Below, piece after piece: positions 6,812 through 11,263 of a DNA stretch of 39,990 nucleotides. A program made the translations under genes and the position numbers. The notes beneath the pieces were generated by a model, which was given only the letters and a program-made list of their open reading frames with translations, did not search any database and was not told where the DNA came from. The stretch covers positions 1 to 39,990 of the IMG/VR virus record IMGVR_UViG_3300030385_001688; one strand, written 5' to 3'. Source of the stretch: a virus. Positions within the stretch are counted from its first letter, which is position 1; each line of letters begins with the position of its first letter.

Positions 6812-7002
6812 TGAGCGCCCTACTTCGGTCAGATGAGCTATCAGAGTGGACAGGCTGCAAGCAGCGTTCCAAGCTGATTGCATGGCTGAATGAAAACCAT
6901 ATCCCGTATCGGCTGGATAAAACTGGCGCACCGATTACCACTCTTGAGGCAGTCAATGCTAGTCTTTTAGATCGCAGAGTCAGTGATGAGGTTGCTTTCT
7001 AA
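6811..7002 (+). CDS. DUF4224 domain protein, possible excisionase or integrase accessory factor
   Basis: 63 aa with the DUF4224 pattern: LRSDELSEWTGCKQRSKLIAWLNENHIPYRLDKTGAPITTLEAV. This compact winged-helix-like module is commonly encoded immediately upstream of phage tyrosine integrases. Its stop overlaps the integrase start by one base (TAATG). Its size and location fit a recombination directionality factor, but that function is inferred. No other excisionase candidate is evident in the operon. Confidence 0.8.
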   Translation: MSALLRSDELSEWTGCKQRSKLIAWLNENHIPYRLDKTGAPITTLEAVNASLLDRRVSDEVAF

Positions 7003-8006
7003 TGGCCCCTAAAAAACGTGCAAATGGTCTTCCGCCTTATGTCTATAAACGCAAATCAGGCTTTGAATTGCGAATATACACCGGTGCAAAAACGCCAATG
7101 CGTGCTGTTAAGCTGTGCCCTGCTGATGCGCCAATATCGGAAGTGTGGCGCTGTTATGAGGAGCATGTAAAACACACTGTTAAAAACCTGTCATGGCTGT
7201 TTTCTGAGTACAAGTTAAGTAAAATTTTTACCCAAAAAGCAGATTCTCCACAAAAGTATCAAGCAGACATGATTACTCGTATCTGCAACTACACCATGAA
7301 AAGCGGGAAGCTGTTTGGCAGTGCTGAATTATCAAGAATTACACCTGGCGCTATACGTCAATACCTTGATGCACGGGAGCGTGACGGATCGCCTACGGCG
7401 GGTAATCGTGAGGTTTCACTTATAAGCGTGGCTTGGAACTGGGCGCTTGAACGTGACCTGATACAGAAGGCAAACCCCTGTAGCGTGGTAAGGCGTAATA
7501 AAGAAGAGCCGCGCACTAGATATGTTACGGATGAGGAATACACTGCAGCTTATGACTTAGCGTCTCGCTATCGGTATTTACAGCCAGCAATGGAGTTGGC
7601 CTACCTGTGCCGTATGCGTCGAATTGAAGTTCTGAATGCCAAGCGATCACAAATATTGGAGCATGGCTTTGATACGTTGCGGGCGAAAGGAAGCCGAAGC
7701 GCGATCACGTTATGGTCTGACAGGTTAAGGGATGCTGTAAATTATCAGGCTGGCGATGTAAAAAGCATGTATATCGTGCATGATACAAATGGACAAAAAA
7801 TAACAGAGGCTGCTTTTAAGTCAGCATGGACACGATTAAAAATAATGATGGAAGGTGCCGGTATAGAGCCTTTTAATTACCACGACCTAAAATCGAAAGG
7901 TGTGAGCGATTTTGAAGGCGATAAGTTAAAAGCATCAGGCCACAGAGACGCTAAGATGCTTAAAGTGTACGACAGGAAGAAACATGAAATTGAATCTACG
8001 AGGTGA
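7002..8006 (+). CDS. int: tyrosine site-specific integrase
   Basis: 334 aa. N-terminal arm-binding region, then a SAM-like core-binding domain (about 60-155), and a catalytic domain. Candidate catalytic residues: Arg206 (in RMRRIEVL), Lys229 (RAKGSR), His294 in HDLK, His314 (ASGH) and the nucleophile Tyr323 (KVYDRKK). The second conserved arginine of the usual HxxR motif is Lys297. It would recombine attP with a bacterial tRNA-Pro gene. attP lies about 480 bp downstream. It is last but one in the pL operon, so it is expressed early. Confidence 0.95.
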   Translation: MAPKKRANGLPPYVYKRKSGFELRIYTGAKTPMRAVKLCPADAPISEVWRCYEEHVKHTVKNLSWLFSEYKLSKIFTQKADSPQKYQADMITRICNYTMKSGKLFGSAELSRITPGAIRQYLDARERDGSPTAGNREVSLISVAWNWALERDLIQKANPCSVVRRNKEEPRTRYVTDEEYTAAYDLASRYRYLQPAMELAYLCRMRRIEVLNAKRSQILEHGFDTLRAKGSRSAITLWSDRLRDAVNYQAGDVKSMYIVHDTNGQKITEAAFKSAWTRLKIMMEGAGIEPFNYHDLKSKGVSDFEGDKLKASGHRDAKMLKVYDRKKHEIESTR

Positions 8007-8390: not shown

Positions 8391-8632
8391 AGCTGCGAAA
8401 ACAAAAATGAGAAGTAAGTAAAAATGCGGGGTTATGTGGCAATTCTTTTTCGCACATTTTGGGGTAACAAGTTGATTTTATTAGAAAACCACCTTGCACC
8501 CCATGCAAGTGCGCTACCAGTCTGCGCTATGCCCCGACGATTGATTTCATTAGGTTTTTTATTTTTCAGCAAGTAAAAAACCGCCATTTGCGAAAACCTG
8601 TGCGAAAACAAATTTATACAAAAGGCGAACAT
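8391..8632. other. attP region: tRNA-Pro(GGG) 5' half with flanking integrase arm-like repeats
   Basis: Non-coding stretch between YopX and the HNH-AP2 gene. On the minus strand, 8536 down to about 8493 reads as the first 44 nt of a proline tRNA: acceptor strand CGGGGCA, TA, D-arm GCGC...GCGC, then anticodon arm CTTGC-ATGGGGT-GCAAG with anticodon GGG. Similarity stops just after the anticodon stem. The motif TGCGAAAA occurs at 8394-8401, 8589-8596 and 8601-8608, and inverted at 8447-8454, flanking the core on both sides as integrase arm-type sites do. No complete tRNA is present, so this is an attachment core rather than a functional gene. Confidence 0.8.
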
Positions 8633-9121
8633 ATGATTACACAGAAAGAGTTAAAAAGCATCCTTCATTATGATCCGGATACCGGTGTTTTTAAATGGCT
8701 CATATCCAGGGGAAGATCAAAAACCGGAAGCGTTGCAGGCAATGCCCATCACTCTGGATATTTATCAATTATGTACAAGGGGAAGGCTTATCAGTCGCAT
8801 AGGCTGGCTTGGCTATACCAATATGGTGAAATGCCAAATGGAGAGGTAGACCACATAAACCAAGATAAGTCCGATAACAGCATTGTCAACTTGAGAGAAG
8901 TGGACCGTACAACCAACTCTAGGAATATGCCAAAAATATCAACTAATCAATCTGGTTGTGCCGGCGTTTCTTGGTCATCAAGCAAAAAGAAATGGCGAGC
9001 AACCATTGGTATTGGCGGAAAGCAGTTGCACTTAGGTTATTACGGAAGTAAGGAAGCGGCAATCAAGGTTAGAAAGCATGAGGAGGTGTTCCATGGCTAT
9101 ACGCCAATACACGGCTCTTGA
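8633..9121 (+). CDS. HNH endonuclease with AP2 DNA-binding domain
   Basis: 162 aa. N-terminal HNH_3-type nuclease: SHRLAWLYQYGEMPNGEVDHINQDKSDNSIVNLREV (about 61-96), with the D-H-I-N catalytic core. C-terminal AP2-like domain: GCAGVSWSSSKKKWRATIG...LGYYGSKEAA (about 113-147). This is the classic architecture of phage homing endonucleases. The ATG at 8633 has AAAGGCG upstream. The longer in-frame start at 8588 would run through the arm repeats and is rejected. Being next to attP, it lies at one prophage end after integration. Confidence 0.9.
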   Translation: MITQKELKSILHYDPDTGVFKWLISRGRSKTGSVAGNAHHSGYLSIMYKGKAYQSHRLAWLYQYGEMPNGEVDHINQDKSDNSIVNLREVDRTTNSRNMPKISTNQSGCAGVSWSSSKKKWRATIGIGGKQLHLGYYGSKEAAIKVRKHEEVFHGYTPIHGS

Positions 9122-9308
9122 AGCTCCACCATGTCAAGGTGGTAGCGTAAAACGCGCAAACCTACTAGGGGCGGCATTTTACACTGTTTTTAGCCACTGT
9201 CAAAAATGGCAAAATCAGCATAATAAAAACAATGGGTTACAGGTTGGTTTCGGACTCAGTATTTGCTTTTCGCTTTCGCCAAAAATTATTAATTTAAAGG
9301 TGAAAACG
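9122..9308. other. 187-bp intergenic stretch, nothing clear
   Basis: Contains a small hairpin (CCACC at 9126-9130, GGTGG at 9138-9142) with no following T-run, and an AT-rich segment before the next ribosome site. No gene, tRNA or convincing promoter is seen. Confidence 0.5.
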
Positions 9309-9524
9309 ATGGAATATTTAGCGTTATTTTTGTATCTGTGTGGTGGTATCGGAATGTATATTCACCTAAATGAAGATAATCCGCCTGGAACTCAAACTAC
9401 CTACCTTTTAGATATAGGCATAAGTCTTTTTTGGTTTATAGGTGTATTAATTTATTTAGGTGTCACTGCCACAGTCTTGCTGGAAGATCGCCGTAATTCT
9501 TCAAAACCATCTGATAAAGCTTAG
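9309..9524 (+). CDS. small membrane protein, 71 aa, cargo region
   Basis: The ATG at 9309 has AAAGGTGAAAACG upstream. Two hydrophobic helices are evident: about residues 3-18 (YLALFLYLCGGIGMYI) and 33-56 (IGISLFWFIGVLIYLGVTATVLL), joined by a polar loop; the C-terminus is charged. No family recognised. It sits between the attP-adjacent endonuclease and the PEP-CTERM gene, so it may be expressed from the prophage. Function unknown. Confidence 0.65.
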   Translation: MEYLALFLYLCGGIGMYIHLNEDNPPGTQTTYLLDIGISLFWFIGVLIYLGVTATVLLEDRRNSSKPSDKA

Positions 9525-9534
9525 TAATTTGATC

Positions 9535-9563
9535 TTGACACTGGCCCCTTCTAGAAATATTTT
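9535..9563 (+). promoter_or_regulatory. sigma70-type promoter for the PEP-CTERM cargo gene
   Basis: TTGACA at 9535-9540, a 17-nt spacer, and TATTTT at 9558-9563. The -35 is a perfect consensus match. It lies in the gap between two cargo genes and points at the gene starting at 9598, so that gene can be transcribed independently of the phage operons. Confidence 0.65.
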
Positions 9564-9578
9564 GTGATCTCTATCACA
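9563..9578. promoter_or_regulatory. CRP-type palindrome TGTGA-N6-TCACA
   Basis: TGTGATCTCTATCACA is a perfect 6+6 palindrome and matches the core CRP/Vfr consensus TGTGA-N6-TCACA exactly. It overlaps the end of the -10 and the expected transcription start of the promoter above, a position where a bound activator-family protein would normally block transcription. It does not resemble the phage repressor operators. Confidence 0.6.
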
Positions 9579-9597
9579 CTTCTATGGAGGGAGTCCC

Positions 9598-10269
9598 GTG
9601 AAAGTAATCCTGTTTGTTTCTGTTATTTTATTTTCGTGCAATATCAGTGCTGCATCATTATCCACTGCATTAACCTTAAACGGCCTTCAATGGGCTCAAC
9701 TGACCGATACTGAATACTTATACGTCCCCGATGTTTATGCAGCCTGCGGTAATAGTGGTGGAGAATGCTCAGGAACTGTAGGCGGAAAAGACTTAGCCGG
9801 CTGGCGATGGGCTAGTACGGATGAAGTAAATGTAATGTTTTATGAATTAATGAGTTTTAATATTAAAAACCCATCCGGTATACCACCCGATACTTCTATA
9901 TGGTTTGATTATTTTAATATTAACGGCATCAAGTCTAACGTGATTTTTAATATTGGACTGACAGCTGATTTTGTTAATTACTCAGAAACTGATGGGGTTG
10001 CCATTTCTGGGCTACTGGGTAGCATTTCAATTAACTTGAATAATGACGATGGTACTGGATCTATTTTTAGGTTTGACCCTTTTGGATTAACTTACGATCA
10101 ATACGGCTTTGAAGGACCACCATATCCGTATGGATTCTTCATGGTTAAAGGTGATTATGCGCTGCCGTCAGAAGTACCGATTCCTGCCAGCTTGTTTTTG
10201 TTTGCTCCGGCATTGATTGGCTTAATTGGTTTCAGACAAAAATGGTTTAACACGAGCCTGACACGCTAA
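9598..10269 (+). CDS. secreted PEP-CTERM/VPxPA-type surface protein, cargo gene
   Basis: 223 aa, starting at GTG 9598 with a strong GGAGGGAG site (9586-9593). Residues 1-18 form a signal peptide (KVILFVSVILFSCNISAA). The body is polar, rich in Asn, Gly and aromatic residues, with GLQWAQLT and KDLAGWRWAS segments like those in PEP-CTERM sorted proteins. The C-terminus has VPIPA followed by a hydrophobic helix (SLFLFAPALIGLIGF) and basic RQK, the three-part PEP-CTERM/VPLPA sorting signal recognised by exosortase. Eight further residues extend into the convergent Rz gene by 48 nt. Exported, exosortase-processed surface protein is inferred. It is a lysogenic-conversion candidate. Confidence 0.8.
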   Translation: MKVILFVSVILFSCNISAASLSTALTLNGLQWAQLTDTEYLYVPDVYAACGNSGGECSGTVGGKDLAGWRWASTDEVNVMFYELMSFNIKNPSGIPPDTSIWFDYFNINGIKSNVIFNIGLTADFVNYSETDGVAISGLLGSISINLNNDDGTGSIFRFDPFGLTYDQYGFEGPPYPYGFFMVKGDYALPSEVPIPASLFLFAPALIGLIGFRQKWFNTSLTR

Positions 10270-10716
10270 TAGTTGACGCGTCATTCTGGCGATTCCTGAT
10301 TGGAGATCGTGATAAGCCTGTTCAGCGTCTTCTGTAAGTCTGGGGGCGGCTCCATTATCCATGCTGGTACTGGGGCCGGTTTCGGACAGTCTATCGCTAC
10401 TGGCTGGACATGTGGCGTTGACGCGCAACCGCTTACGGCCAGCATCAACATCAGCACGAAGCTGGTTGTTTTGCCTCTCTGCATCACGCAGTAAAGCGTA
10501 TTGTTCAGCTTCAACAGCCGCCCATACAGCTTGCTTTTTATCGAGTTCATTTTGCAATTCCCGTTGTTTATCTGCTGCAGCAACAGCAATTGATTTGAGT
10601 GTTTCAGATGTTCTGGTATTGGCCTCAGCAATCTGCTCACCCATTCGCCATCCTTGCACCTGCCAACCAGTGACAAAGGCAACCAGGAAGCCTGCAAGTA
10701 AAAAGTATTTATTCAT
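10222..10716 (-). CDS. Rz: Rz-type inner-membrane spanin subunit
   Basis: 164 aa. N-terminal transmembrane anchor (about residues 4-20, YFLLAGFLVAFVTGWQV) followed by a long periplasmic coiled-coil region rich in Ala, Gln, Glu and Arg. It spans the periplasm and pairs with Rz1 to disrupt the outer membrane in the last step of lysis. The start at 10716 overlaps the end of the endolysin gene by 8 nt; the ORF is open further upstream within the endolysin. Rz1 is nested within it in another frame. Its last 16 codons overlap the convergent PEP-CTERM gene. Confidence 0.85.
   Translation of the reverse strand: MNKYFLLAGFLVAFVTGWQVQGWRMGEQIAEANTRTSETLKSIAVAAADKQRELQNELDKKQAVWAAVEAEQYALLRDAERQNNQLRADVDAGRKRLRVNATCPASSDRLSETGPSTSMDNGAAPRLTEDAEQAYHDLQSGIARMTRQLLACQARVKPFLSETN
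10281..10484 (-). CDS. Rz1: Rz1-type outer-membrane lipoprotein spanin, nested in Rz
   Basis: 67 aa in a different frame, entirely inside Rz. It has a signal sequence ending in the lipobox LAVSGC (Cys20), then a proline-rich mature part (PKPAPVPAWIMEPPPDL), the hallmark of Rz1. The lipoprotein sits in the outer membrane and contacts Rz across the periplasm. The start at 10484 gives a canonical basic N-terminus (MQRGK). Confidence 0.88.
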   Translation of the reverse strand: MQRGKTTSFVLMLMLAVSGCASTPHVQPVAIDCPKPAPVPAWIMEPPPDLQKTLNRLITISNQESPE

Positions 10717-11227
10717 AAAGCCCAGCCAAACAAAGATTGTCACGCTCAGCCTGCCTGCGGTTGTAAAGCCCCTGAATGAAATTACCACTCGCATAAGACC
10801 AGTTTGGCTTGCCACTGAACGTATTAGCCAGCAATCGACAGCCGTTCAAATAGTCTCCACGGTTAATGTGACGCACTGATTGGCTCTTGCAGGCTTTGGG
10901 AGCGCCTACATTCCATGCCAATGACGAAACAGCGTCAAACACTCCTTGTGGCGGCTCATGCGTTAAACAATTCAACAGCTCCAGCTGAACCTTTGTCACT
11001 GCCACACTCATAACGCGATCGCACTTTTCTTTAGACCAGTATTCACCCACAATCACAGGCTCATCGGTAACGTGCTTTGTTATGCCATAGCAAGCAGTTG
11101 GTAATCCTCCCGCTAACTTATCGGCATAAACCGTCATGCCATCTTGTCCACCTCCCTCCCATAGTGCGAGAAAGGCAACAAGAACAGACGAGCCTAGCGT
11201 TAAACCGCCAACCTTAAATCTATTCAT
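10709..11227 (-). CDS. SAR endolysin (phage lysozyme, glycoside hydrolase 24 type)
   Basis: 172 aa. N-terminal weakly hydrophobic signal-arrest-release segment rich in Gly, Ser and Ala (VGGLTLGSSVLVAFLAL, about 6-22), immediately followed by the catalytic Glu24 in WEGGG. Asp36 (YAD) and Thr44 (PTACYG) complete the E-D-T triad, with longer spacing than in P21 lysozyme. It cleaves peptidoglycan after release from the membrane. The start at 11227 is preferred because GGAG lies upstream at 11234-11237, whereas the alternative ATG at 11242 abuts the terminator. It follows the tailspike, unlike P22. Confidence 0.9.
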   Translation of the reverse strand: MNRFKVGGLTLGSSVLVAFLALWEGGGQDGMTVYADKLAGGLPTACYGITKHVTDEPVIVGEYWSKEKCDRVMSVAVTKVQLELLNCLTHEPPQGVFDAVSSLAWNVGAPKACKSQSVRHINRGDYLNGCRLLANTFSGKPNWSYASGNFIQGLYNRRQAERDNLCLAGLYE

Positions 11228-11241
11228 ATTTACTCCAGACA

Positions 11242-11263
11242 TAAAAAACCGCCCGAAGGCGGC
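11242..11263 (-). terminator. rho-independent terminator between tailspike and endolysin
   Basis: On the minus strand the stem CCGCC-TTCG-GGCGG is followed by six T residues. It is placed between the tailspike stop (11280) and the endolysin ribosome site, so unmodified polymerase would stop before the lysis genes. Confidence 0.75.

Follow-up and report, generated by a model that had tools for sequence, protein, structure and literature searches.

The conversion genes of P22- and Sf6-type phages lie near int and attP and vary between relatives; those described so far mostly encode O-antigen-editing enzymes (gtrABC, oac and oacB). The proteins handled by exosortases such as EpsH/XrtA carry a signal peptide and, near the C-terminus, a VPxPA motif, a transmembrane (TM) segment and basic residues; to our knowledge, most of these substrates have no known function. 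Sf101, which has an Sf6-like organisation, carries OacB, an O-antigen acetylase and acyl_transf_3 protein (PMC4159516). The PEP-CTERM protein PepA keeps EPS on cells and restores flocs in another species, Aquincola (PMC9850573). In M. nitratireducenticrescens GP59, four PEP-CTERM/VPLPA genes stand behind c-di-GMP riboswitches, near EPS genes (PMC12530212). Open-access papers yielded no account of a phage that carries PEP-CTERM cargo; the first-pass annotation had called the sorting signal, to its knowledge, unusual in phages and had suggested that the system could be undescribed. Here we describe a gene of this type at 9598-10269 of a phage of methanol-eating marine bacteria (Methylophagaceae). 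Where the cargo of P22 and Sf6 consists of O-antigen-modifying enzymes, this one is a secreted protein that would need a host exosortase.

The window, meaning the whole stretch of DNA analysed, is 39,990 bp long and is closed on itself by a 99-bp terminal repeat. Its genes include those for a P22-type portal, the large terminase subunit, a scaffold, RecT, a DnaC-like loader and a CI-like repressor, together with an integrase, an endolysin and Rz/Rz1; it is a complete temperate P22/Sf6-like podophage. Portal, terminase and scaffold place it in the same phage group as P22, Sf6 and Sf101. Window 8498-18801 matches, at 100% identity, a 10,304-bp contig of the metagenome-assembled genome (MAG) Methylophaga sp. 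UBA2689; this contig and a tRNA-Pro attP link the phage to Methylophagaceae. For this family 57 genomes were available (genomes carry G-numbers below and loci L-numbers).

The integrase, a tyrosine recombinase (7002-8006, plus strand; phrog_1 E=2.4e-34, weak Phage_integrase match), precedes an attP core at 8492-8538 (minus strand) that runs from the anticodon loop to the 5' end of tRNA-Pro(GGG). Over its 47 bp the core shows 96% identity with tRNA-Pro genes of Methylophagaceae, the host copy being tRNA-Pro(ggg). The UBA2689 contig breaks inside it, at window 8498. The tRNA-Pro locus of the MAG itself is uninterrupted and the integrated state is not seen there; integration is therefore unobserved, and the phage contig may be mis-binned. 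From the core to the cargo gene is 1.06 kb, so the earlier placement of the gene next to attP was correct. Between the two lie an AP2-type HNH endonuclease gene (8588-9121, plus strand; PF13392 E=4.7e-15, phrog_99 E=2e-65) and a small plus-strand ORF of 71 aa (9309-9524), with two hydrophobic segments read from its sequence and no match in a Pfam search. A non-coding 186-bp element at 9126-9311 (plus strand), 88-91% identical to counterparts in L168, L172 and L174, contains a tRNA-Val-like anticodon-arm palindrome, CCACCATGTCAAGGTGG, and is conserved upstream of the cargo position in related phages; it is possibly a second att arm, or an older, ancestral one. On the far side, the cargo gene runs in the opposite orientation to the late operon and converges on the lysis genes. 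The minus-strand Rz-like spanin gene (10222-10815; phrog_2466 E=2e-31) overlaps its 3' end by 48 bp and has an Rz1-like frame nested within it (10281-10697, minus strand; PF06085 E=2.5e-12), and beyond it come the endolysin gene at the end of the late operon (10709-11242, minus strand; phrog_7 E=1.7e-30) and a presumed tail fibre gene on the same strand. The gene occupies a slot that follows integrase and attP and lies outside both the early and the late operons.

The product is a PEP-CTERM/VPLPA-type surface protein of 223 aa read from a GTG start (9598-10269, plus strand). Its N-terminus, VKVILFVSVILFSCNISAA, followed by SLS, is a predicted signal peptide over residues 1-19 (9598-9654), with a hydropathy peak of 2.3 and an A-x-A-like end, NISAA; it may instead be a lipoprotein signal (LFSC). 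The tail of an exosortase substrate was expected to combine, in its last 35 or so residues, a VPxPA or PEP motif, a TM segment and a basic cluster. The C-terminal tail, SEVPIPASLFLFAPALIGLIGFRQKWFNTSLTR, has all three elements (SEVPIPASLFLFAPALIGLIGFRQK), the tag SEVPIPA-TM-FRQK covering residues 191-215 (10168-10242). A low-confidence structure model places a helix at residues 198-219. A lineage HMM built from 25 chromosomal Methylophagaceae tails, with the query excluded, scores the phage protein at 52.6 bits (E=7.3e-15 among 4248 ORFs and shuffles), as against E=0.14 for the best of 1000 shuffles and E above 1 for the best viral ORF that has no such tail. The combination of signal peptide, VPIPA, hydrophobic helix and basic tail read by the first-pass annotation is confirmed. 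Compared with single host tails, identity reaches 78% over residues 191-217, and in alignment the phage and Methylophagaceae tags have SEVPxPA and LFAPALxG in common. Tails of the same flavour (VPxPAAxFLFAPALLGxxGxRRK) occur in 33 of the 57 family genomes, the UBA2689 MAG among them. The proposed comparison of the C-terminus with PEP-CTERM/VPLPA models had a divided outcome: the lineage HMM recognised it, but TIGR03370 (VPLPA-CTERM) gave the isolated tail 14.3 bits, below its cut-off of 25.35, and Pfam gave no match. The Pfam model PF07589 matched nothing in the window or in the controls, so its silence is uninformative. Chromosomal Methylophagaceae tags, both proteins of L164 for example, are likewise missed by Pfam, and its cut-off is therefore insensitive for this family. 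The best NCBIfam similarity is to floc_PepA (NF033554; E=0.00015 and 21.6 bits, the cut-off being 80), in the C-terminal region. From this likeness in sequence, the phage protein very probably bears a true exosortase-type tag, in the host family's own version.

The remainder of the protein, the passenger, resembles little else. Neither 50,697 phage records nor 72,556 plasmids contained a passenger homolog, and the full passenger had none in 369 genomes of the class. A 64-aa N-terminal piece weakly matches gammaproteobacterial proteins (E about 0.01-0.1), four of which have PEP-CTERM/VPLPA tags, a likeness that is suggestive only. Structure prediction gave the passenger no usable fold (pLDDT 36 alone, 39 with four relatives).

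In related phages, found through the integrase, the endolysin or the upstream leader described below, the slot is filled differently. L171/L172 have a different PEP-CTERM protein (170 aa) together with an FkbM methyltransferase, and L168/L173 another PEP-CTERM protein (188 aa). Since L168 and L173 are one contig, and L171 and L172 near-identical versions of one phage type, the independent phage PEP-CTERM cases here, the window included, number three. An FkbM methyltransferase occupies the slot in L170 and L174/L178, a hexapeptide acetyltransferase nearest to EpsC/WcaB models in L175/L176, and an OafA-type acyltransferase (Acyl_transf_3), of the same superfamily as Sf101 OacB, in L107. The slots of L106, L113 and L177 contained no PEP-CTERM, FkbM, EpsC/WcaB-like or Acyl_transf_3 gene. 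Judged by their families, these cargoes would act on glycans or the envelope, which supports the view of this position as a surface-modification (lysogenic conversion) slot in the relatives. The three PEP-CTERM passengers keep the tag while the remainder diverges. The 48-bp overlap with the end of the Rz gene could suggest a virion or lysis component adjoining the spanin genes, but the gene lies on the opposite strand with a promoter of its own and is absent or replaced by an enzyme in close relatives. We regard a virion or lysis role as very improbable, and the gene as almost certainly a moron and not a virion part.

The gene starts behind a conserved leader. A predicted sigma70-type promoter, TTGACA-N17-TATTTT (9535-9563, plus strand), has 10 of 12 consensus matches, and its -10 region is part of the leader conserved at four loci, which agrees with the own promoter that had been proposed for the gene. 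A CRP-like palindrome, TGTGATCTCTATCACA (9563-9578, plus strand), follows, with TGTGA-N6-TCACA half-sites that match the CRP consensus; the site occurs once in the window, where 0.03 are expected, and is found at the same position in L168, L172 and G039. The Shine-Dalgarno sequence GGAGGGA (9586-9592) stands ahead of the GTG start. The -10, palindrome, Shine-Dalgarno sequence and start make up a 48-bp plus-strand block (9557-9604) that is invariant over four loci except at two positions in one of them. The block AATATTTTGTGATCTCTATCACACTTCTATGGAGGGAGTCCCGTGAAAG is identical in the window and G039; L171/L172 differ at the first base only, and L168 has two further changed positions. All three phage PEP-CTERM genes carry the leader, which has one chromosomal occurrence in Methylophagaceae (G039), and a blastn search with it against phage and plasmid records gave chance-level matches only. 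The proteins encoded downstream of it at the other loci align with the window protein at 25-33% identity, most of it at both ends. With a 17-bp spacer between TTGACA and TATTTT, the palindrome would cover the transcription start, and a CRP-family regulator would therefore be expected to repress; alternatively, the leader may form an RNA hairpin. CRP-like sites are weakly enriched upstream of host PEP-CTERM genes (0.92 vs. 0.47 per kb with two mismatches allowed), and the one exact match among these genes is that of G039. The leader is sigma70-like, whereas pepA is RpoN-dependent (PMC9850573).

The chromosomal occurrence is at G039:C27 (L164 15777-17108), a tandem PEP-CTERM pair beside the nuo operon, the first gene of which has the phage leader. 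No phage genes are evident nearby, and the pair may be a donor locus or domesticated cargo.

Regulation sets the phage genes apart from most of their chromosomal counterparts. Directly upstream of 16 of the 22 chromosomal Methylophagaceae PEP-CTERM genes examined is a c-di-GMP-I riboswitch (RF01051/RF03167; loci L024-L027, L029, L032-L035, L037-L039 and L061), usually 18-43 nt ahead of the start codon. Four of the 16 have a called start that precedes or falls inside the aptamer, and their true start is therefore probably further downstream. The phage loci (window, L168 and L171) and the G039 pair have no c-di-GMP riboswitch; one in the phage was considered and rejected, no match having been found. 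Display of the phage protein would therefore not depend on c-di-GMP as a signal for biofilm. The phage gene thus shares host family and tag class with the GP59 genes but lacks their riboswitch, and it departs from the EpsH/XrtA system in being phage-encoded and in having a CRP-like sigma70 leader in place of a c-di-GMP riboswitch. To the first-pass annotation we add the leader common to these loci, the exchangeable slot and the lack of a riboswitch. As side observations, the c-di-GMP PEP-CTERM regulon looks family-wide, the earlier report that we found being for one strain (PMC12530212), and the riboswitch-free PEP-CTERM genes L030 and L060 have another upstream motif in common, TAGTACCAAxGTACAATA.

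A sorting tag of this kind needs an exosortase, and PF09721 scored above cut-off in 33 of 57 Methylophagaceae genomes. Tag and exosortase go together: 27 genomes have both, 6 the tag only, 6 the exosortase only and 18 neither (Fisher p=2.9e-5, an optimistic value since the genomes are related). In G041 and G046 the exosortase gene clusters with a prsT-like TPR lipoprotein gene, as in the EpsH/XrtA system, and with glycosyltransferases. The UBA2689 MAG had no exosortase match; the entire exosortase/EPS cluster is missing from it, and a search for the flank of the exosortase gene gave no match there. It nevertheless encodes three PEP-CTERM proteins. G041, which is exosortase-positive, is nearest to it at the tRNA-Pro locus among the genomes compared (87.5% identity). 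The absence of the cluster may be an assembly gap, a variable island or true. The phage genes that were examined showed no exosortase (the PF09721 search did not extend to the window). The first-pass annotation had staked its reading on an exosortase in the hosts. That is borne out at the level of the family, where the enzyme co-occurs with tags, but not in the UBA2689 MAG. We think there is a good chance that the actual host uses the sorting tag.

Our preferred explanation, which we hold with reasonable though limited confidence, is that the gene is a lysogenic-conversion gene (moron) in a surface slot, and that it displays a surface protein via the host exosortase, free of c-di-GMP control. 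Its sigma70 promoter would drive transcription in the lysogen, tuned by a CRP-family protein bound to the palindrome that covers the start site. Sec would export the protein, and the host XrtA exosortase would cut the VPIPA tag and hand the protein to the outer surface or EPS. There it would alter the presentation of EPS and receptors, most likely lowering the adsorption of competing phages and/or changing aggregation, and, as the gene lacks a riboswitch, its display would no longer follow the biofilm signal. Passengers that differ behind a constant leader and tag are as expected of diversifying surface antigens. The cargo and lysogenic-conversion role proposed earlier stands as regards the variable slot, the gene's own promoter and the surface-type cargo in relatives; sorting by a host exosortase, a changed lysogen surface and a block to adsorption are inferred. 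Surface conversion with a benefit to the phage seems to us somewhat favoured. A wider version, in which Methylophagaceae phages hold a dedicated, exchangeable, exosortase-dependent family, with fast-diverging passengers between a constant CRP-like leader and tag, that re-coats the lysogen and blocks rivals, freed from c-di-GMP control, we offer only tentatively. On that version, lysogenic conversion would work through protein sorting and not glycan modification. A phage protein addressed to the exosortase would make an EPS-linked sorting pathway a phage-host battleground. The locus offers a small testable substrate, a natural set of variants that keep one tag and leader, and a comparison of c-di-GMP-gated host genes with a phage gene that has no such gate.

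The tail might be merely tag-like, a plain C-terminal membrane anchor for an inner-membrane protein that acts, for example, in superinfection exclusion at DNA entry. The basic tail, FRQKWFNTSLTR, is longer and less basic than host tails, the curated tag models are not passed, and the UBA2689 MAG yielded no exosortase. A plain anchor would not be expected, however, to have this specific likeness to Methylophagaceae tags, SEVPxPA and LFAPALxG included, to be retained by three different phage passengers, or to share its leader with a chromosomal PEP-CTERM gene, and we consider it unlikely. About as unlikely, if slightly more so, is a passive hitchhiker, a host PEP-CTERM gene picked up once, promoter included, through an imprecise excision, and since then drifting without use to the phage. 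The match of leader and tag to G039:C27 beside the nuo genes and the GC content of the gene (0.397 vs. 0.450 for the phage) fit such a capture; yet two more phages have the same leader in the same slot with other passengers, the frame is open behind a strong Shine-Dalgarno sequence and promoter, and sister phages keep surface-modifying enzymes there. A possible but less than even reading, a sub-case of the preferred explanation and not exclusive of it, is that the sorted protein acts chiefly on the ecology of the host, such as EPS retention, flocculation or biofilm, and not on phage exclusion. The retention of EPS and restored flocculation by PepA in Aquincola (PMC9850573) speak for it, as do the c-di-GMP gating of host PEP-CTERM genes and their nearness to EPS genes in GP59 (PMC12530212), whereas the acyl-, acetyl- and methyltransferases in the slot resemble the receptor-modifying conversion genes of P22/Sf6-type phages. 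On our analysis an effect on aggregation would be as plausible as receptor masking, and we make no firm choice.

Tagged proteins also occur in other viruses. A scan of 2.9 million viral contigs, tuned to the Methylophagaceae tag and hence an undercount, returned secreted PEP-CTERM-like proteins of about 254 aa on L088, L089, L092, L093 and L095-L104 (for example L101 7335-8099). Their contigs, from many metagenomes, carry RecE-like and other phage genes, and the family is absent from named phage records. Further tagged ORFs lie on L086/L087 and L094. A tblastn search of phage records with a generic tag gave no match, probably owing to the low-complexity filter, and does not count as evidence of absence. 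L090 and L091 encode a tagged 94-aa ORF without a signal peptide, in a phage that has a DNA polymerase, primase/helicase and exonuclease; in L091 (7797-8081) this ORF overlaps the upstream gene within a replication operon.
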